DNA of 37,727 nucleotides from assembly GCA_016219225.1 (NCBI GenBank), contig JACRBX010000287.1, positions 1-37,727 of the forward strand, written 5' to 3'. The notes under the pieces were generated by a model. It did no database searches and had not been told where the DNA came from. It saw only the letters and a program-made list of their open reading frames with translations. Source of the DNA: Deltaproteobacteria bacterium. GTDB lineage: Bacteria; Desulfobacterota; RBG-13-43-22. Of this stretch, positions 19,002 to 28,492 are shown piece by piece. Numbering within the stretch: the first letter of the stretch is position 1; each line of letters starts with the position of its first letter. The translations under genes were made by a program, and so were the position numbers.

Positions 19002-20534
19002 CTATTGAGGAACGGCATGTCCAAATTTTCCGACCAACCCTTCCTCTTTCTTCGAGGGGGTTGTGGGCCAGGCGGAGGAAGGATTTCCAGGTCTGGGTTT
19101 TTCTTTTCCCGTGCCCTCCAAACTCCCCAACAGATAAAACTCAAAATCCGTCGGCTCGACAAACTGATCGGTCGGAAGCGTCTGTTTGGTCATATCTAAA
19201 GGCTTCACCAGATGAGGGGTGACAATAACAATCAATTCCGATTCATTTTTCCGGAAAGCACTGCTTCTGAATAAAGAACCCAATATGGGGATGTCCCCTA
19301 AAACAGGAAACTTGGAGACCACTTCCCGCACATCTTCTTTAAGGAGACCGGCAATGGCGAAACTTTGTCCGTCCCCCAGTTCGATGGAGGTAGCCACCCG
19401 TCTGGTATTGATACTCGGCAAAAGAAAGCCTTGGACGACCACGGCATTGGAGAAATCAAGTTCGGACACCTCGGGGGCCACCTGCATATGGATCTTACCG
19501 TTACTTAATACCGTCGGAGTGAAGGCCAATCCCACACCGAAGGGTTTGTATTCGACCGAAACGGTTCCTAATCCGGAAGAATAAGGAATAGGGAATTCCC
19601 CACCGGCCAGGAAATTGGCTTTCTGCCCGCTCTGGGTGATGAGGGTAGGTTCCGCCAGGACTTTTAAAAGACCGTTCTCCTTTAAAGCATCTATCAAAAC
19701 CGTCCAGGGGGTGCCGTTGACCAGAAATCGCAACACTCCATTAATGTTGGAAGAAACAGCCAACGGATCCAAAGGATAGCCGTCAATAGAAGTATAAACT
19801 CCCGAACCGCTCAGGGGGGCCAAGCCTTTGGGGGGCAGATTCGATAAATTATTAAGCAAGGTCAGGCCAATCTCTCCGCTGCGGTTAAGGAGCCCGAAAT
19901 TAAATCCAAACCTTTTAACCACATTTCGAGACATTTCGGATACCCGCACCTCCAACATCACCTGATGCACCCCGCCGACCTGGAGCAGATTAACGATCCT
20001 GCCCTTTTTGTTTTCTTTATCATAAGGGGCATAGGGTTCCACCAGGGAAAGGATCTGAGAAAGATTGGCTGAATTGGAGACCGTTCCGGAAAGGGTGATA
20101 TAATCCTGGTTATAATGGAGACGCAGGCCCTTTTCTTCCGGGAAAAGGGTATGGAGTCGTTCCTTTAATTGAGTGAGATCCGGGGCCACTTCCAGGTCCA
20201 AAACATCGGAAATCTTATTTTCGTCTTCCCATATAGTGACGTTGGTTGAACCCGAGGTTTTTCCAACCAGGTAAAGCTGGTGAGGAGTCAAGACCATGGC
20301 ATCGGCTATCCTCGGTTCGGCCAGGGAAACCCGCTTTATGGGTTTTTGGCTTTGAATGATGATGGACTTTCCCAGGATTAAATTCAATTTCTGGGGGGCG
20401 ATGGTTTGGAGGGAAACCCTTTCCGGTCCCTGCCCCCAGCAGGATGGTGAAACCAAAAGACCCAGGGGCGGCAGAATCAGAAAGGAAAACAATAGACACA
20501 AAATCCCAAACTTAATGGAATGGTCCATTTTCAT
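19002..20534 (-). CDS. cpaC: Tad outer-membrane secretin RcpA/CpaC
   Basis: A 510-aa secretin. After a signal peptide it has an N-terminal pilus-assembly N0-like domain (LNLILGKSIIIQSQKPIKRVSLAEPRIADAMVLTPHQLYLVGK), a BON-like domain (about 130-190, LHYNQDYITLSGTV), and the secretin core (HQVMLEVRVSEMSRNVVKRFGFNFG through SFAIAGLLKEDVREVVSKFPVLGDIPILGSLFRS...ELIVIVTPHLVKP). It forms the outer-membrane gate through which the Flp pilus passes. Its start overlaps the CpaB stop as ATGA. The C-terminal about 60 residues are a low-complexity, proline-rich tail. Confidence 0.94.
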   Translation of the reverse strand: MKMDHSIKFGILCLLFSFLILPPLGLLVSPSCWGQGPERVSLQTIAPQKLNLILGKSIIIQSQKPIKRVSLAEPRIADAMVLTPHQLYLVGKTSGSTNVTIWEDENKISDVLDLEVAPDLTQLKERLHTLFPEEKGLRLHYNQDYITLSGTVSNSANLSQILSLVEPYAPYDKENKKGRIVNLLQVGGVHQVMLEVRVSEMSRNVVKRFGFNFGLLNRSGEIGLTLLNNLSNLPPKGLAPLSGSGVYTSIDGYPLDPLAVSSNINGVLRFLVNGTPWTVLIDALKENGLLKVLAEPTLITQSGQKANFLAGGEFPIPYSSGLGTVSVEYKPFGVGLAFTPTVLSNGKIHMQVAPEVSELDFSNAVVVQGFLLPSINTRRVATSIELGDGQSFAIAGLLKEDVREVVSKFPVLGDIPILGSLFRSSAFRKNESELIVIVTPHLVKPLDMTKQTLPTDQFVEPTDFEFYLLGSLEGTGKEKPRPGNPSSAWPTTPSKKEEGLVGKFGHAVPQ

Positions 20535-21436
20535 TGGTCTTCACCTCTTTCAAAATTGACTTCGCTGACTTTATTGCCTTTGATTAATTGCACGGTAAAA
20601 AAAGCTTTTTTTACCTGCTCGGGTTTTTGGTTATTCGACGATTGACTTTCAGAAGATTTTTTTTTGACTGTAACTCTCTTAACCGGATTATTCGGAGGAT
20701 CGGCCGGGCTATAGGAGGCCAACAGATAGGGAACTGTGGTCCCTCTGGTAAAAACAGATTCCGTGTCGGTATAATTTCTCAGGGCCAATTGTACTTTCCC
20801 TTCCGTAGCGGCCAGGGCCAGCTTTTCCCCTTCTTCCGGAGTAACCTCCAGGGTGATGACATCGACTTGGGCAGGCTTTTCCTTTTTCCCCTTCTCTTCC
20901 ACATCCGAACCGGCAGCCAGCACCAGAACATTTTGCAGAACCACCTTGGTTATCGGATTCTCACTTTTACCTTTTTCTTTATTGAGGGTCACCAGGACAT
21001 CCACCCGGTTGCCCGGATGAATAAACCCGGAGACCCCAACCACCTTATCCACCTTGATGGCCATGGCCCTTTTATTCACCGGTAAGATAGCCGCTACCCC
21101 GCCCTGGACGATGGAGGCCGGGGCCAGTCTGGATTCCGATATCAGTTCATCCTTTTTGATCGGATAGGTTAACACCCGTCCGAAGACCTTGGCCCCATTG
21201 GTAAAACAACCCGGGGGACAACTTTCCCCGAGAAAGGGTTTCATGGTAATCATCTCTTTGGTGATGACTTTTCCCCAGGGGATATCCATGGTCGCCACGG
21301 CAAGCGGATGGGTTTTTAAAGCCATCCCCTCCCGCAGTTGCGCCCTCTTCTGCAGCCAACTGTATGACAACAAACTGGTGATCAGGGCGATCGCCAAAGC
21401 CACTCCCAGCAAAATAATCGGTTTATTTTGTTTCAT
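20531..21436 (-). CDS. cpaB: Flp pilus assembly protein CpaB/RcpC
   Basis: A 301-aa protein with an N-terminal membrane anchor (IILLGVALAIALITSLLSYSW), then a SAF domain (VATMDIPWGKVITKEMITMKPF...VFGRVLTYPIKKDELISESRLA) and an RcpC domain with a conserved VDVLVT stretch. CpaB sits in the periplasm, attached to the inner membrane, and helps stabilise the secretin. AGGAGGT is 4 nt upstream of the ATG. It overlaps the secretin gene by 4 bp, so the two are coupled. Confidence 0.92.
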   Translation of the reverse strand: MKQNKPIILLGVALAIALITSLLSYSWLQKRAQLREGMALKTHPLAVATMDIPWGKVITKEMITMKPFLGESCPPGCFTNGAKVFGRVLTYPIKKDELISESRLAPASIVQGGVAAILPVNKRAMAIKVDKVVGVSGFIHPGNRVDVLVTLNKEKGKSENPITKVVLQNVLVLAAGSDVEEKGKKEKPAQVDVITLEVTPEEGEKLALAATEGKVQLALRNYTDTESVFTRGTTVPYLLASYSPADPPNNPVKRVTVKKKSSESQSSNNQKPEQVKKAFFTVQLIKGNKVSEVNFERGEDQ

Positions 21437-21448
21437 GATGACCTCCTT

Positions 21449-21967
21449 CTATCCTCCCTTTTTTAAAATTGAGAAGACCGTACCTGCGGCGATGGCTAAT
21501 CCGTAACATAACTGAGTCGCTTTCTCTTTAGAACCAGGGAGAGGAACAAACTGTTGCGTCAATAGAAAACTTTTTAAGTTTATCCAGCATCCCTTTATTC
21601 TTTCTTGACAGACGGTATTGATCAGAATAAGAATTAATGCGTAGACTCCCCCGAAAATCCCCGTATAAAGAAAGGCCCAGAAAACACCCTGAGGTCCCAG
21701 CCATCCCCCCACTGCGGCCATTAACTTTACATCGCCGGCCCCCATCCCACCGGCCAGATAAAAAACGATCAGAACAGCGAGTCCGGTCAAGATACCCGCC
21801 AGACTGAAAAGGAAGCCGGACCAGCCGTTATAGCCTGTCCAATAGATAAGGGATAAAGCCATGGTCGGATAAGTAAGACGGTTGGGGATCTTTTGAGAGT
21901 TGAGGTCATTTATTACCGCTAAGATCAAGGCCGCCAATAAGAACCAGGTTTGCGGTGTTTTCATCAT
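21449..21967 (-). CDS. tadV: Tad prepilin peptidase TadV/CpaA
   Basis: A 172-aa polytopic membrane protease of the A24 family that cleaves Flp prepilin and pseudopilins. The first catalytic Asp is in DLNSQKIPN near residue 20, and the second is in the GxGD motif GGMGAGDVKLM near residue 75. There is no N-terminal methyltransferase domain, which is normal for Tad. It is upstream of cpaB by 12 bp. Between it and the flp pilin is a strong stem-loop (22009-22053). Confidence 0.94.
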   Translation of the reverse strand: MMKTPQTWFLLAALILAVINDLNSQKIPNRLTYPTMALSLIYWTGYNGWSGFLFSLAGILTGLAVLIVFYLAGGMGAGDVKLMAAVGGWLGPQGVFWAFLYTGIFGGVYALILILINTVCQERIKGCWINLKSFLLTQQFVPLPGSKEKATQLCYGLAIAAGTVFSILKKGG

Positions 21968-22008
21968 ATAGACAGTATTCCTTAAAAATATTTTATCGGT
22001 CCTGAGAG

Positions 22009-22053
22009 ACAGGATGCATTATTATGAAATCAGACATCAATAATGCACCCTGT
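22009..22053 (-). terminator. stem-loop between the flp pilin and tadV
   Basis: The minus-strand RNA can pair ACAGGGTGCATTATT with AATAATGCATCCTGT (15 bp with one G-U) around a 15-nt loop. It lies 42 bp past the flp stop. It lacks a T-tract, so it looks more like a partial terminator or a 3'-end stabiliser that would let pilin mRNA exceed the downstream assembly genes. That effect is common in pilin operons and is inferred here. Confidence 0.5.
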
Positions 22054-22094
22054 ATTAAAATGGACTTTGTCGATCCCGGTTTGTGGATTAACTG

Positions 22095-22256
22095 CTATAA
22101 GGCTGTAGACACTGCATTGAATTTAGTAACTAAGGCAGTTCCTACTGCGGTGACCGCAGTAATGATAGCCACAGCGATCAATGAGGCGATCAAACCGTAC
22201 TCAATGGCATTGGCGCCTTCCTCTTCTGCTAAAAAACTTTTGATCCACTTTTTCAT
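22095..22256 (-). CDS. flp: Flp major pilin
   Basis: A 53-aa Flp-type prepilin. After a basic leader (MKKWIKSFLAEEEGA) comes NAIEYGLIASLIAVAI, matching the Flp pattern with the prepilin peptidase cleavage site G/A just before the hydrophobic stretch and the Glu-Tyr pair at positions +5/+6. Residues 20-45 are one hydrophobic helix. AAGGAGGT stands 7 nt before the ATG, a strong ribosome-binding site as expected for a highly expressed subunit. A CTGACA-17-TATATT promoter at 22368-22396 gives a leader of about 105 nt. It is the first gene of the Tad locus. Confidence 0.95.
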   Translation of the reverse strand: MKKWIKSFLAEEEGANAIEYGLIASLIAVAIITAVTAVGTALVTKFNAVSTAL

Positions 22257-22361
22257 CAACAACACCTCCTTTCTTATTTTTGACCCATCTTTGATTTTTA
22301 AGATCGACAGGCTTTGGTTTCACCCTCTCCGGATAACCTTTGGAAGCGCTTTAATCCTTTT
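22257..22361 (-). promoter_or_regulatory. structured 5' leader of flp
   Basis: About 105 nt lie between the predicted start site and the flp ATG, long for a 53-aa gene. The minus-strand RNA can fold GGUU-AUCC around GGAGA with GGGU-GA-AACC (22310-22345), followed by a second hairpin AUCUU/AAGAU. The stretch GGTGAAACCAAAGCC recalls the GGUGACGCAAAGCC core of c-di-GMP-I riboswitches, but the rest of that consensus is not met. A riboswitch is therefore a hypothesis only. Confidence 0.28.
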
Positions 22362-23669: not shown

Positions 23670-24710
23670 CTACAAAAAGCACTGGGGATCTTCGGCCAGG
23701 AAATCATTCTCTGCTCTGGACTGGGAACAGGCATAGGCAACGGCCCGGCAACCGCGGCAATTGGCCCATCGGTTGCAAGAACCGCATTTGCCCTGGTACT
23801 GGCTCCTGTCCCGGAGCTTTTCGAGTACCGGAGAGGTAACCCAAAGTTCACGCAGCGAGTCTTCTTTGACATTCCCAATGGGGATCGGGAGCCTTCTGCA
23901 GGGGGTAACCGTTCCATCGGGTAAAATGGTCATTCCGGAAAATCCGGCCGCACAGCCGCCCATGGGCACAGCCCCAAGGTCCACCGTCTCGGCAAAGCGG
24001 TCCATTTGGGAGGCCACCGGATCGCCGGTGACTATTTCCAGACCAGGAAACCGGATCGAAAAGACTTCCAGATAAAGGTCCTTTAGTTCTTCCTTGCTCA
24101 GCATATGCGGCAGCAATCCCACCCCCCGGCCTGAAGGGACCAGCCGGGAAAAACCAAGACGGTCCACCTTGAGGGAATCGGCCAGGACGGCCATTTCTTC
24201 CAGATAAGGGGCGTTGATCTCAGATAAAGTCATATTCAAGGTGGTTTTAAGGCCCGCGGTCAGCAGTTGATCGATCCCTCCCAATGTGGCTGCGAAACTT
24301 CCCTTCCCCCGGATCGATTCATGGATCCTTTCCGGCCCTTCCATACTGACTTGAATCCCCTTCACCCCCAACTGAGAGAGCCGCTCGGCCTTTTCCCGGT
24401 CTATCAAAATCCCGTTGGAAAGCAGGTAAAGTTCAAATCCCTTTTGGCCCATGGCCTCCAAAATCTCAAACAGGTCCGGCCGGAGAAAAGGCTCTCCGCC
24501 GGTGACATTAAAACTGGGTGCGAAGGACATATCATAGGCTTCTGACCAGGCCTCGATCATATCGGCGATCTCCTGTACCACCGGTTTGATCTCAGCCAAG
24601 GACATCTCCTGGGAGGCTTTTCCTTCCTGATAACAATGCCGGCATCGAAGATTGCAGCGCTCGGTGAGGTGCCACTGAACAAAAAAATCCATAGCATTAT
24701 CCGTTAACAT
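23670..24710 (-). CDS. radical SAM/SPASM protein, putative peptide maturase
   Basis: A 346-aa enzyme. The radical SAM cluster motif is CNLRCRHC (Cys19, 23, 26) near the N-terminus, with GGEP at 71-74. The C-terminal SPASM domain holds auxiliary cluster cysteines at 253, 271, 309, 312, 318, 321, 328 and 344 (GGCAAGFSGM...TPC, CGSCNRWANCRGC). SPASM proteins of this size modify ribosomal peptides or proteins, or act in cofactor pathways such as PqqE, AhbD and NirJ. A 34-codon gene with a strong ribosome-binding site starts 258 bp upstream on the same strand, and a B12-binding radical SAM gene is upstream of that. That context favours a RiPP maturase; the substrate is unproven. Confidence 0.86.
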   Translation of the reverse strand: MLTDNAMDFFVQWHLTERCNLRCRHCYQEGKASQEMSLAEIKPVVQEIADMIEAWSEAYDMSFAPSFNVTGGEPFLRPDLFEILEAMGQKGFELYLLSNGILIDREKAERLSQLGVKGIQVSMEGPERIHESIRGKGSFAATLGGIDQLLTAGLKTTLNMTLSEINAPYLEEMAVLADSLKVDRLGFSRLVPSGRGVGLLPHMLSKEELKDLYLEVFSIRFPGLEIVTGDPVASQMDRFAETVDLGAVPMGGCAAGFSGMTILPDGTVTPCRRLPIPIGNVKEDSLRELWVTSPVLEKLRDRSQYQGKCGSCNRWANCRGCRAVAYACSQSRAENDFLAEDPQCFL

Positions 24711-24825
24711 AAACCCTCACTTTTTTTATCGGGTGGTTTTCGATTCGTTTTGATCACGCCATCATCAAAGGAAAAATGGCGGATAAGCAGGAGATTCTTT
24801 ACCCTGCCCATCCGCCACCGGGTTT

Positions 24826-24844
24826 CGTTGCTATCCAAGCAACG
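24826..24844 (-). other. stem-loop between peptide gene and maturase
   Basis: Perfect 6-bp arms CGTTGC / GCAACG with a 7-nt loop, 19 nt past the stop of the small peptide gene. There is no T-tract. In RiPP operons a hairpin here often raises precursor mRNA over maturase mRNA; that role is inferred from position. Confidence 0.4.
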
Positions 24845-24863
24845 TTTAAGATTTTCAACTCTT

Positions 24864-24968
24864 TCACTTGCGGCATACCTTACCAGGATTTTCCTTCAAG
24901 ACCTTCTTCATCTTATCCCAATAGGCAGCTTCCTTGGCCATCACCGTGGGGTTCGGCTTATTAGTCAT
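24864..24968 (-). CDS. 34-aa peptide, candidate RiPP precursor
   Basis: A 34-codon frame from ATG at 24968 to TGA at 24864, not previously assigned. The peptide begins MTNKPNPTVMAKEAAYWDKM, continues KKVLKENPGKV and ends in CRK. It is basic (Lys-rich) and amphipathic in the middle, with Tyr16, Trp17, two later Lys clusters and one Cys (Cys32) near the C-terminus. It has no signal peptide. AAGGAGGT lies 8 nt upstream of the ATG, the strongest ribosome-binding site in this part of the window, which argues that it is translated. It lies between a B12-binding radical SAM gene (ends at 25089) and a SPASM radical SAM gene (starts at 24710). I recognise no family. The role as a modified peptide precursor is inferred from context. 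Confidence 0.6.
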   Translation of the reverse strand: MTNKPNPTVMAKEAAYWDKMKKVLKENPGKVCRK

Positions 24969-25088
24969 CCCGATCCACCTCCTTTCTGTGATAGTTTTCC
25001 TTATAAAATAGCAAATTTTAATTTTAATAGAGATGGAGCCGGTGGGATATAAGGTATTTCCCTTATTTTGCCTTTGGAAATACTGTAT

Positions 25089-26711
25089 TTAACTCGTTTT
25101 AATAATTCTCCCCTCCTGGGTTTTGATATGATCCAATCGGGACCAGAGGTCGGAAAAGAGACCTGCTCTAAAGCGGGGCAGATCTCGATACCCTTCTTTG
25201 ACGGCGGCATAGAGTCGACCTTCGGCTAAAAGCCTTTCGAAAATCTCGGCCCCCAGGGCCGACCTCCTTCCCCCCTTCCGGGCAATCCCCAGGGCTGTTT
25301 TAAGATTTATCGTGGGGTCGTGAAACCGCAGCCCCTTAAAAAAATTGATCATCCTGGTGGCGGCAAAAAGGGTATAAATATCTTCTCGTTTGAAATTATC
25401 GGTTTCAATGGCCATGGCCGTGAGACAGGATTTAAGGACATCGGACTCGGTCGGTTCCGGAAACTTTTGAGCGATGGGGGTTCCGGGGGTTAAATAAAAA
25501 GGGGAGGCACCTAAAAGGACCGGGAGCTGGGAATTGACCCGCAAGGTCCGGATCATGGAGTTGAGTGATTCACCGGGCAGACCTAATATCTGATAAGAGA
25601 CAATCTTAAACCCTAAGCGGAAAGCCTCATGGACCACCGCCAGATAGTGTTTCATCCCCCGGGGTCGAAGGGCTTCTCTCCGGATCACGGGACTGGAACT
25701 GACCAGAGAAAGATTCAGATGGGTAAAACCAGCCTCTTTCATCAAAATCAACAATTCCGAATTCAGGCTCTGATAAGAGATGCCGTTCATGGCCAGCAGT
25801 TCGATTTTCCCCGGCGGAAAGGCCCGGCCTAATTTTTCACAGAGGATTTTTATCTCTCCCTGGTCAAAAGTCAGATTGTCGTCTTCAAAATCAAAGACCC
25901 GGTATCCCTCCTGATAACGAAGCCTGATTTCTTCAAAAACATCCCTTACCGATCGCCTTCGGTAGCCGGGAAAGGTGGTGTGTACCGAGCAAAAGGAACA
26001 CTGATGCGGACAGCCCCGGGAGGTCATGATAAAGCACATGGGGCGCTTTTCATAGGTATAGGTTTCCGGGGCCAAATCGGAAAGATCCGGAATGGGAAGT
26101 TCCTCGATGGGAAAAGGGACGCCAGGGGGATTCAGGAATAGACGGCCGTCTTTTTTGTATCCGAGCCCCTGAACCCCTTCCAACCCCTGGCCTGAGGACC
26201 AGGCCTTGATCAATTCCATCAGAGGCCTTTCCCCCTCTCCCCGGATCACCCAATCGACGGCCGGATGGCGGAGCATCAACTCGGGCAGGGCCGAGCAATG
26301 GGAACCGCCGAGAACAATCGGGCATTCTAATTCCTTCTTGATGGTATCGGCGCATTTCAGCACCTCCCGGAAATAAGGAGAAAAAAGCGAAGAAATCCCC
26401 ACCAGGTCGGGTTTTTCCTGAGCCACTTCCCGGGCAATGGTTTCAAGAGAGGCCCCGAAATGATAATAGTGGTGAAACAATGAAAAAGGGCTTTGGTCCG
26501 GCCAGGGGTAATAGTCTTTCAGATAAGCCAACTCTTTGGGCAGGGCGATGGTCCGTCGGCCCCAGCCTTGATGAAAATCTTTGATCACCACTTCCCATTC
26601 CGGCAGGTGCTTTTTCATCGCCCCCTTTAAATAAGCTAATCCGATGGGCTGAAGCCTAATGGCCGTATCATAGAAATCCTGGACGGGCGGCTGGATCAGG
26701 ACGAGTTTCAT
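25089..26711 (-). CDS. B12-binding radical SAM protein
   Basis: A 540-aa enzyme with an N-terminal cobalamin-binding Rossmann-like domain (MKLVLIQPPVQDFYD..., GISSLFSPYFREVLKCADTIKKELECPIVLGGSHCSA) and a radical SAM domain. The Fe-S motif is CPHQCSFC (Cys234, 238, 241). The C-terminal about 150 residues are a helical extension with no assigned fold. B12-radical SAM enzymes typically methylate unactivated carbons or carry out ring contractions; the target is unknown. The gene is followed at 120 bp by the 34-aa peptide gene and then the SPASM radical SAM gene, all on the same strand. A TATAAT box lies about 35 bp upstream of its start, overlapping a divergent promoter. Confidence 0.88.
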   Translation of the reverse strand: MKLVLIQPPVQDFYDTAIRLQPIGLAYLKGAMKKHLPEWEVVIKDFHQGWGRRTIALPKELAYLKDYYPWPDQSPFSLFHHYYHFGASLETIAREVAQEKPDLVGISSLFSPYFREVLKCADTIKKELECPIVLGGSHCSALPELMLRHPAVDWVIRGEGERPLMELIKAWSSGQGLEGVQGLGYKKDGRLFLNPPGVPFPIEELPIPDLSDLAPETYTYEKRPMCFIMTSRGCPHQCSFCSVHTTFPGYRRRSVRDVFEEIRLRYQEGYRVFDFEDDNLTFDQGEIKILCEKLGRAFPPGKIELLAMNGISYQSLNSELLILMKEAGFTHLNLSLVSSSPVIRREALRPRGMKHYLAVVHEAFRLGFKIVSYQILGLPGESLNSMIRTLRVNSQLPVLLGASPFYLTPGTPIAQKFPEPTESDVLKSCLTAMAIETDNFKREDIYTLFAATRMINFFKGLRFHDPTINLKTALGIARKGGRRSALGAEIFERLLAEGRLYAAVKEGYRDLPRFRAGLFSDLWSRLDHIKTQEGRIIKTS

Positions 26712-26723
26712 GGCGGTTCTTTC

Positions 26724-26752
26724 TTGTATTGTTATCTGGAAATGATTATACT
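26724..26752 (+). promoter_or_regulatory. overlapping divergent promoters
   Basis: In the plus direction TTGTAT (26724-26729), 17 nt, and TATACT (26747-26752) would serve the small gene starting at 26792. On the minus strand a perfect TATAAT (26745-26750) lies about 35 bp upstream of the B12 radical SAM start, though its -35 is weak. The two -10 boxes overlap, so the two directions may compete. Confidence 0.45.
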
Positions 26753-26791
26753 ATAGACAAAAATTGAATCATTAATAAAAGAGATGGTTTT

Positions 26792-27082
26792 ATGGAAAAA
26801 ATTCAGATAATCACTTCTGAACCCCAAAAAGTGCTTCCGGTTCTTCAAGATGCTATCGAACGACAGAAACGTATCCTTTCACAAAGTCTTTTTCAGACGG
26901 AGGAAAGGATTCAACAATTAGCTCATCAACTCCAGGTCAATCCTGATCTCCTTATGGCGGGGGAAGTGCCTCATCCTGAAAATCAGGATATGGATTTGCT
27001 TGAACTTGAAGGGGAATTGGAGATATCCCATCATCTGCGTGAGCAAATAAAGAACCTTGAAGATTTAACCATATGTCTCTAA
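26792..27082 (+). CDS. small protein, probable partner of a TumE-like toxin
   Basis: A 96-aa acidic, largely helical protein (e.g. VLQDAIERQKRILSQSLFQTEERIQQLAHQL, then LELEGELEISHHLREQIKNLEDL). I recognise no named domain. It overlaps by 10 bp the next small gene, whose product is the N-terminal half of a TumE/DUF6516-type toxin, and this is the usual arrangement for the partner or antitoxin of that family. A promoter-like TTGTAT-17-TATACT lies 40 bp upstream. Function as antitoxin is inferred from position. Confidence 0.65.
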   Translation: MEKIQIITSEPQKVLPVLQDAIERQKRILSQSLFQTEERIQQLAHQLQVNPDLLMAGEVPHPENQDMDLLELEGELEISHHLREQIKNLEDLTICL

Positions 27083-27249
27083 CAGGTTACCTGACCGACT
27101 TACAATCTCTCTTAGCAGAAGCCCCTTTTCTCCTCTCCACTTCACTTCATTACGAAGAACGTCCTCCCGTTGCCGGTTTGGTTAAAGGGACTCTGTTTTT
27201 TGCCGATGGATCTCAACTTAATTTCAAGGATGAGGATTGTGTAATATAA
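27073..27249 (+). pseudogene. truncated TumE/DUF6516-family toxin
   Basis: A 58-codon frame whose product (LTGYLTDLQSLLAEAPFLLS...LHYEERPPVAGLVKGTLFFADGSQLNFKDED) matches the N-terminal half of TumE-type (DUF6516) toxins, which normally run to about 100-130 residues with a later Arg-Trp-Asp-Asn-type motif. Here the frame ends in TAA immediately after the first half, and no continuation is seen in 27250-27295. It is therefore probably inactive, although it might still bind the partner. The start overlaps the upstream gene by 10 bp. Confidence 0.6.
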
Positions 27250-27295
27250 TACTTTCAATAAAATTTTTCCGATCCGTCAATTGAGGAGGTGACTC

Positions 27296-28492
27296 ATGAA
27301 CTACATCATTATCGGCAACGGGGTTGCCGGCACCACCGCAGCAGAGACCATCAGAAAAACCGACCCGGCAGGAGAAATCAAAATATTTAGCGATGAAGCC
27401 TTTCCTTTTTACAGCCGCATACGGTTGATGGAATACCTGGCCGGCGAACTGGAGATGCCGAAACTCCAGATCCGTTCCAACGCCTGGTATGATGCCCAGA
27501 AGATCCAACTTCTTCTGAATACCAAAATTAAGGAAATCGATAAAGACCGGAAAGAAGTGGTCACCCGGTCAGGAGAACGGTACGCCTATGATAAACTTTT
27601 ACTGGCCACCGGCGGTTATTCCTTTGTACCGCCTATTAAAGGGGCCGAAAAGCCTGGGGTATTCACCTTGCGCAGTCTCAAGGATGCCCGGGCCATACAG
27701 ACCTTTGCCGCCGGCAAGACCAATGCCTTATTGATAGGCGGCGGGCTCTTGGGTCTGGAAGTGGGCAACAGCCTTCGAAAGACCGGTTTGAAGGTAACGG
27801 TTGCCGAATTCTTCCCCCGTCTTCTTCCACGGCAGACCGATCCGGCCTGTGCGGCCCTGCTTCAAGGCCGCTTGGAGCAGATGGGATTTCATTTTTATCT
27901 GGGTGTTGTTTCCAAGGAAATCACCGGCGATGACCATGCCCAGGGGCTCCTTCTGGAGGATGGCCGGTCCATTGAGACCAATCTGATTATTATATCGGCC
28001 GGGGTCAGGCCCAATCTGGAACTAGGACAAAATTTAGGTTTGAAGATCGGCAAGGCCATCCCGGTTTCGGACCGGATGGAAACGGAGATCCCGGATATCT
28101 ATGCCGCCGGTGACGGCATCGAACATAAAGGGATGGTGTACGGCATCTGGCCGGCTTCGGAAAAGCAGGGCCAGGTGGCCGGTCTGAATATGGCCGGGGG
28201 GACGGCTGAGTATACCGGAACCACCCCTTCCAATCAGCTCAAGGTGGCCGGGATCGATTTATTAGCCGCCGGCGACATCGATCCCGAAGGGAAGCTTTTG
28301 GCCTTTGTCGATCAGAATCAGGCGGCCGGGACCTATCGAAAACTGGTTCTTAAAGATAATCAACTGGTGGGCAGTCTGCTTTTCGGCACCCTGGAAGGAC
28401 GGAAAAAAATCTTAAAGGCCCTGGAAGAAAAAAAGGACCTCTCGGCCATCAAGGACCAATTGGCCCGGTTCGATCTGGAGGCTTTGGGGTAA
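27296..28492 (+). CDS. FAD/NAD(P)-dependent oxidoreductase
   Basis: A 398-aa pyridine nucleotide-disulfide oxidoreductase-class flavoprotein. The FAD motif GNGVAGTTAAE is at residues 7-17 and the NAD(P) motif GGGLLGLEVGNSL near 150. The FAD-closing sequence IYAAGDGIEH is near 265. There is no CxxC redox pair. The nearest described relatives are rubredoxin reductases and the NirB N-terminal domain; it most likely reduces a small iron-sulfur or flavin protein. GAGGAGGT precedes the ATG. It is probably expressed on its own. Confidence 0.9.
   Translation: MNYIIIGNGVAGTTAAETIRKTDPAGEIKIFSDEAFPFYSRIRLMEYLAGELEMPKLQIRSNAWYDAQKIQLLLNTKIKEIDKDRKEVVTRSGERYAYDKLLLATGGYSFVPPIKGAEKPGVFTLRSLKDARAIQTFAAGKTNALLIGGGLLGLEVGNSLRKTGLKVTVAEFFPRLLPRQTDPACAALLQGRLEQMGFHFYLGVVSKEITGDDHAQGLLLEDGRSIETNLIIISAGVRPNLELGQNLGLKIGKAIPVSDRMETEIPDIYAAGDGIEHKGMVYGIWPASEKQGQVAGLNMAGGTAEYTGTTPSNQLKVAGIDLLAAGDIDPEGKLLAFVDQNQAAGTYRKLVLKDNQLVGSLLFGTLEGRKKILKALEEKKDLSAIKDQLARFDLEALG

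Follow-up and report, generated by a model that had tools for sequence, protein, structure and literature searches.

A putative two-selenocysteine peptide precursor paired with a radical SAM/SPASM enzyme in at least two bacterial phyla

Introduction

Among described systems, the closest known kind to the locus reported here is SbtA/SbtM (TIGR04081/TIGR04082), in which a selenocysteine (Sec)-containing precursor with a selenocysteine insertion sequence (SECIS) is accompanied by a radical S-adenosylmethionine (SAM)/SPASM maturase, SbtM, whose action on Cys/Sec peptides yields thio(seleno)oxazoles (PMC11002830). SbtA is listed as Selenobacteriocin, SGUG, in a 2026 inventory of 119 prokaryotic selenoprotein families, in which it is the one entry for a ribosomally synthesized and post-translationally modified peptide (RiPP) (PMC13188914). 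We describe here a putative two-gene unit on a stretch of 37,727 nucleotides from a Deltaproteobacteria bacterium (assembly GCA_016219225.1, contig JACRBX010000287.1, the whole stretch being called the window), consisting of a gene for a 40-residue selenopeptide precursor and a gene for a radical SAM/SPASM enzyme. As in SbtA/SbtM, a predicted Sec-containing precursor with a SECIS is paired with a radical SAM/SPASM enzyme, but the peptide motif is CxKUKxUKS rather than SGUG and the read-through peptide has no TIGR04081 match, and the enzyme, at 154.6 bits, is below the TIGR04082 cut-off of 350, its alignment covering no more than positions 199-505 of the 516 in that model.

Other radical SAM/SPASM systems were also compared. 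The ACGX system (TIGR04340), among the three best NCBIfam scores of the enzyme (171 bits), is linked through its name to Cys repeats of regular spacing, which resemble the C/U triplets found here, and a distant relative of the enzyme (locus L009) following a protein that ends in CGGCGGCGG was noted with this likeness; nevertheless, the score is far below the cut-off of 400, and the peptide combines a conserved leader with a tail of C-U-U triplets and lacks ACGX repeats. By sequence (1.8e-20) as well as by fold (6.0e-17), the nearest solved relative is SkfB, an enzyme that links Cys to a backbone carbon through a thioether. In contrast to the SkfB/CteB sactipeptide and ranthipeptide maturases, to which identity is 23%, the substrate here is no known sactipeptide and no export or immunity genes are conserved. 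The radical SAM/SPASM core is also shared with GeoRSP (TIGR04303), NirJ2 (TIGR04055) and AhbD (TIGR04545), and alignments to the NirJ2 and GeoRSP models cover almost the full length of the enzyme, but the scores (153.7, 173.5 and 173 bits, respectively) fall short of the cut-offs (400, 500 and 500), and neither PqqD nor heme genes are conserved in 20 neighbourhoods. The enzyme lies outside every curated NCBIfam family (best score of 173 bits, against cut-offs of 350-500).

The peptide gene and its reading frame

The peptide gene (24846-24968; minus strand, as for every feature of the window given below), delimited by a read-through alignment and profile searches, encodes MTNKPNPTVMAKEAAYWDKMKKVLKENPGKVCRK-U-KS-U-KS, followed by its true stop codon, TAA (24846-24848), and is preceded by a ribosome-binding site, AAAGGAGG, at 24976-24986. 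An AGGAGG-like site is present at the same place in 65 extracted relatives, at least four matches out of six having been a criterion of the search. The original prediction placed the end of the peptide after 34 residues, in a 34-codon open reading frame (ORF; 24864-24968) with AAAGGAGGTGG upstream. However, two UGA codons, UGA-1 (24864-24866, codon 35) and UGA-2 (24855-24857, codon 38), appear to be read through in a conserved frame, giving a full peptide of 40 residues that ends in CRK-U-KS-U-KS. Because UGA-1 was taken as the stop, that reading overlooked both putative selenocysteines, the SECIS and the six C-terminal residues, a part of the peptide that ranks among its best conserved. In every relative, the sequence continues past the apparent stop with the pattern TGA-xxx-xxx-TGA-AAR-xxx-stop. 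Seven read-through peptides align over 40 columns, with both UGA positions and the final K-S invariant, and the conserved parts are an N-terminal EAAxW..KK and the C-terminal tail C-x-K-U-K-x-U-K-S.

Codon usage in this tail was tabulated for 65 genes encoding 60 distinct peptides. UGA-1 was TGA in 64 of the 65 genes and TGC (Cys) in the other, and UGA-2 was TGA in all 65, never TAA or TAG. The terminal codon, by contrast, was mixed (TGA in 32 genes, TAA in 19 and TAG in nine), with five genes extending one or two codons more. Were UGA-2 a normal stop codon, with TGA, TAA and TAG used in the proportions seen at the terminal position, the chance of 65 TGA in 65 genes would be about 1e-18, a figure that serves as a guide only, as related sequences are not independent. 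Third positions in the tail varied most where the residue was kept, with K encoded by AAA or AAG and G by GGN. The last Ser was encoded by AGC, AGT, TCC, TCT or TCG, and the AGY/TCN switch needs more than one base change. This codon-type conservation ended at the terminal stop. A third UGA considered as a further Sec codon was rejected, the same codon being TAA or TAG in 28 relatives, with nothing coding conserved beyond it.

Computational recognition of a selenoprotein usually relies on homologues in which Cys and Sec replace one another (PMC13188914). In a second class, the peptides of G590 (CLKCKSUKSK) and G656 (CLSCKGUKSK) have Cys in place of the first Sec, so that conserved in-frame UGA codons are accompanied by Cys replacement in some homologues. 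All-Cys versions were sought in the class of G590 and, through the enzyme, in Omnitrophota, but the searches recovered nothing beyond the distant L009 and forms mixing Cys with Sec. From these comparisons, it is close to certain that UGA-1 and UGA-2 encode selenocysteine.

The peptide was present in four of the five searched genomes of the window's order. A profile of the seven peptides found it in 59 of 396 sampled Nitrospirota genomes, each best match having exactly two internal TGA codons, and, within the window's phylum, in about 14 of 395 genomes; of the 17 matches there, the three weak ones (G562, G501 and G685) were inspected and rejected, as they are not the peptide. With a wider profile, 74 genes were recovered from 73 of the 230 genomes of one Nitrospirota class, all 74 with exactly two TGA codons. 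Searches of plasmids with the peptide and the enzyme gave no match. The 34-codon ORF as it stands matched nothing in NCBIfam or Pfam, and the read-through peptide had no match in NCBIfam release 20.0, consistent with the earlier view that it belongs to no known precursor family; nor is the family among the 119 entries of the open-access inventory (PMC13188914), open-access literature being the scope of the comparison. The selenopeptide family is thus apparently undescribed and occurs in at least two bacterial phyla.

SECIS element and second hairpin

The published model of the bacterial SECIS (bSECIS) has a loop of 3-9 nt with a G in its first two positions and a stem of 4-16 bp, located 16-37 nt from the UGA, with a minimum free energy (MFE) of at most -7.5 (PMC13188914). 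The hairpin at 24826-24844, just 3' of the true stop (CGUUGCU-UGGAU-AGCAACG), agrees with this model: it has a 7 bp stem and a UGGAU loop lying 26 nt from UGA-1 and 17 nt from UGA-2, and the stretch from UGA-1 has an MFE of -11 kcal/mol. The SECIS of the relatives is mostly GUUGCxGGUCxGCAAC, with a GGU-type loop, and in most of them 25 nt separate UGA-1 from the GG and 16 nt separate UGA-2 from it, a few having 15 nt or more than 37 nt. In an alignment of 38 sequences, 98.2% of the cells were paired and 29 double-change cells were counted, versus 7.6 in shuffled alignments (0/500), and sliding the partner strand by 1-3 columns destroyed the pairing. In most members, the window included, the hairpin lies 3' of the stop codon, and a single SECIS would serve both UGA codons. 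A search of Rfam with the region returned nothing meaningful.

A second, strong and terminator-like hairpin, followed by UUUUU, lies between the peptide and enzyme genes (24774-24819). It had been noticed in the original prediction and is real, the 106-nt stretch containing it folding with -35.7 kcal/mol (z = -4.1). By an uncontrolled count, 40 of 64 relatives have a hairpin of at least 8 bp with a T-rich tail at this position, whereas a strict scan of the window for sigma-70 promoters and terminators found none. This hairpin is probably an attenuator keeping the mRNA of the peptide in excess.

Selenocysteine machinery

The machinery for Sec incorporation was assessed on the basis of SelB and tRNA-Sec and is present. 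The window's own genome (G000) encodes a full-length SelB (390 bits) with the SelB-specific third winged-helix domain (82 bits), and tRNA-Sec was found in G001-G004, which are related to it, and in G005-G008 from Nitrospirota. In a comparison of 40 peptide-positive with 40 peptide-negative genomes, the SelB winged-helix domain was detected in 36 and 24, respectively (Fisher p = 0.004, uncorrected for lineage).

Separately, the congener G004, which has neither the peptide nor the SPASM enzyme, carries an intact SelB on C215 and, behind a tRNA-Sec on C31 (24494-27942), another SelB that is split into two parts (26028-26837 and 27016-27942).

The SPASM enzyme and its linkage to the peptide

The predicted maturase is a radical SAM/SPASM protein of 346 amino acids (23670-24710; Pfam Radical_SAM and SPASM), with relatives of 61-63% identity in Nitrospirota. 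The auxiliary cluster had been described as complete, and this holds: the CxxxCxxC motif (C19, C23 and C26) and seven auxiliary cysteines (C253, C271, C309, C312, C318, C321 and C344) are all invariant in 27 homologues. An AlphaFold2 model (predicted local distance difference test of 87) has SkfB, PqqE, SuiB and anSME as its nearest solved folds, most of them peptide- or protein-modifying SPASM enzymes. SPASM enzymes of such architecture usually act on peptides.

Three of the four relative loci found first have the same small gene just upstream of the SPASM gene, the fourth (G008) having it on another contig. More generally, in 42 of 44 loci the next gene downstream of that for the peptide is the SPASM gene. 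The enzyme is encoded elsewhere in the genome in the two exceptions (G149 and G276) and in G008, and it was not found in 73 of 74 peptide-negative genomes. The locus has an adjacent short conserved peptide gene and an enzyme with the SAM-cluster and seven SPASM cysteines, as expected of a radical SAM/SPASM RiPP system, and the peptide frame is conserved beside the SPASM gene in relatives. When gene neighbourhoods extending to as much as 18 kb were compared among 20 genomes and the window, nothing else was conserved in most of them; in particular, no transporter, protease or peptidase, or immunity gene was conserved beside the pair.

Proposed mechanism and alternative explanations

The comparative sequence evidence shows that UGA-1 and UGA-2 are both translated as selenocysteine, with the one SECIS just past the true stop directing both insertions. 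The N-terminal part of the peptide (EAAxW..KK) would serve as a leader recognized by the SPASM enzyme, which may use its SAM cluster together with a pair of auxiliary Fe-S clusters to oxidatively modify the Cys/Sec triplets of the tail. By analogy, the leading options for the bond formed are SkfB-type cross-links, most likely a selenoether or thioether to a tail carbon, or an SbtM-type heterocycle. With no conserved gene for a transporter, peptidase or immunity, the product would be expected to stay in the cell, and an exported antibiotic is less likely than a selenopeptide or cofactor that has a redox or metal-binding role in the cytoplasm. Judged from sequence comparison, this two-gene mechanism as a whole has a probability of about 0.85. 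That it defines a new class of encoded selenium natural product or cofactor, with a post-stop SECIS, two Sec residues and SPASM-made Cys-Sec-Sec cross-links or heterocycles, is a more tentative proposal, for which we would offer slightly less than even odds. The peptide family itself would be a second family of Sec-containing RiPP precursors beside the one (SbtA) in that inventory, without sequence match to the latter, widespread in one Nitrospirota class and present in a second phylum. Ordinary annotation would miss it, both Sec codons having the appearance of stops. The family would add a double-Sec, single-SECIS-after-stop design to the bacterial selenoproteome and provide a testable enzyme-substrate pair for radical chemistry on selenium.

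Some observations weigh against this mechanism. The SECIS loop of the window is UGGAU, versus GGU(C) in most relatives. The draft genome G000 contains no intact tRNA-Sec, only the 3' 62 of 94 nt (L077, G000:C145, about 159-220), identical to the corresponding part of the tRNA-Sec of its congener G003 and fused to unrelated sequence near a contig end; the gene was probably split by an assembly break or by an element integrated in selC. The SelB domain was not seen in four of the 40 peptide-positive genomes, two of which are only 76% and 85% complete. Finally, G014 has the enzyme and no recognizable peptide.

The alternative that survives best is that the selenopeptide is real but is left unmodified by its partner, the SPASM enzyme being of the heme or small-molecule type and the peptide a redox partner or metal chaperone. 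The C-U-U tail is plausible as a reductant or metal ligand, and the best NCBIfam scores of the enzyme are those of the heme enzymes NirJ2 and AhbD (173 bits), albeit far under the cut-off of 500. The nearest relatives in both solved folds and sequence are, however, mainly peptide maturases, with SkfB first, substrates of SPASM enzymes are usually encoded by a short gene immediately before that of the enzyme, and no heme-pathway gene is conserved beside the enzyme. We therefore consider this explanation unlikely.

A three-gene RiPP pathway, including C-methylation by a B12-dependent enzyme, had been put forward in the original prediction. All three same-strand ORFs are present where they were placed, and a gene for a 540-residue B12-binding radical SAM protein (25089-26711; ORF list, Pfam B12-binding and Radical_SAM) lies about 120 bp upstream of the peptide gene on the same strand, in the window and in its congener G003. 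Nevertheless, it adjoins the peptide gene in no other oriented locus, and clustering of the neighbouring proteins gave no B12 group common to at least four of 21 neighbourhoods. The compact set is thus reduced to two genes: the RiPP idea stands for the peptide and the adjacent SPASM enzyme, a pair conserved in two phyla and co-occurring, but not for the B12 enzyme, which was rejected as a pathway member, making the three-gene version very improbable.

Decoding of UGA as another amino acid, by a code change or plain suppression, is very improbable: conservation directly shows the reading frame and not the inserted residue, but these very genes often end in UGA as their true stop (32/65), the SECIS-like hairpin covaries, SelB and tRNA-Sec are present and the substitution observed is Cys. 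We give equally little credence to a 34-residue peptide truly ending at UGA-1 and followed by a conserved RNA element with chance UGA triplets, since, although strong hairpins follow the peptide gene and a terminator-like one is common there, the codons after UGA-1 evolve as codons, conservation stops at the mixed TGA/TAA/TAG codon, a Cys codon replaces UGA-1 in two genomes and UGA-2 is never TAA or TAG in 65 genes.

Additional loci and gene neighbourhood

In the branch with Cys for the first Sec (L118 and L120 in G590, L119 in G656), the SPASM gene starts within a few bases of the SECIS, and G590 contains a second unit, in which the peptide ends after one Sec (CLKUKS-TAA). At L130 (G014:C135), an orthologous SPASM enzyme (1e-153) has no recognizable selenopeptide upstream. 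A further AhbC/NirJ-like radical SAM ORF lies on the minus strand about 1375 nt past the peptide at L092 (G620), and a YceI-like ORF, named from its sequence only, occurs in five neighbourhoods.

The distant Omnitrophota enzyme at L009 (5141-6978; also L121) is 35% identical and overlaps or abuts the end of a membrane-type protein with the C terminus SCSGCSGCSSCGGCGGCGGCGGCGG. The protein preceding this enzyme relative ends in CGGCGGCGGCGG, and neither SelB nor tRNA-Sec was found above cut-offs in this genome. The C-terminal tail is perhaps the Cys-repeat substrate of a sister system.

Elsewhere in the window, minus-strand genes at 19002-22265 encode secretin-like, CpaB-like and prepilin-peptidase-like proteins and a 56-residue Flp-like pilin and, judged by reading the sequence, together look like a Flp/Tad pilus cluster.

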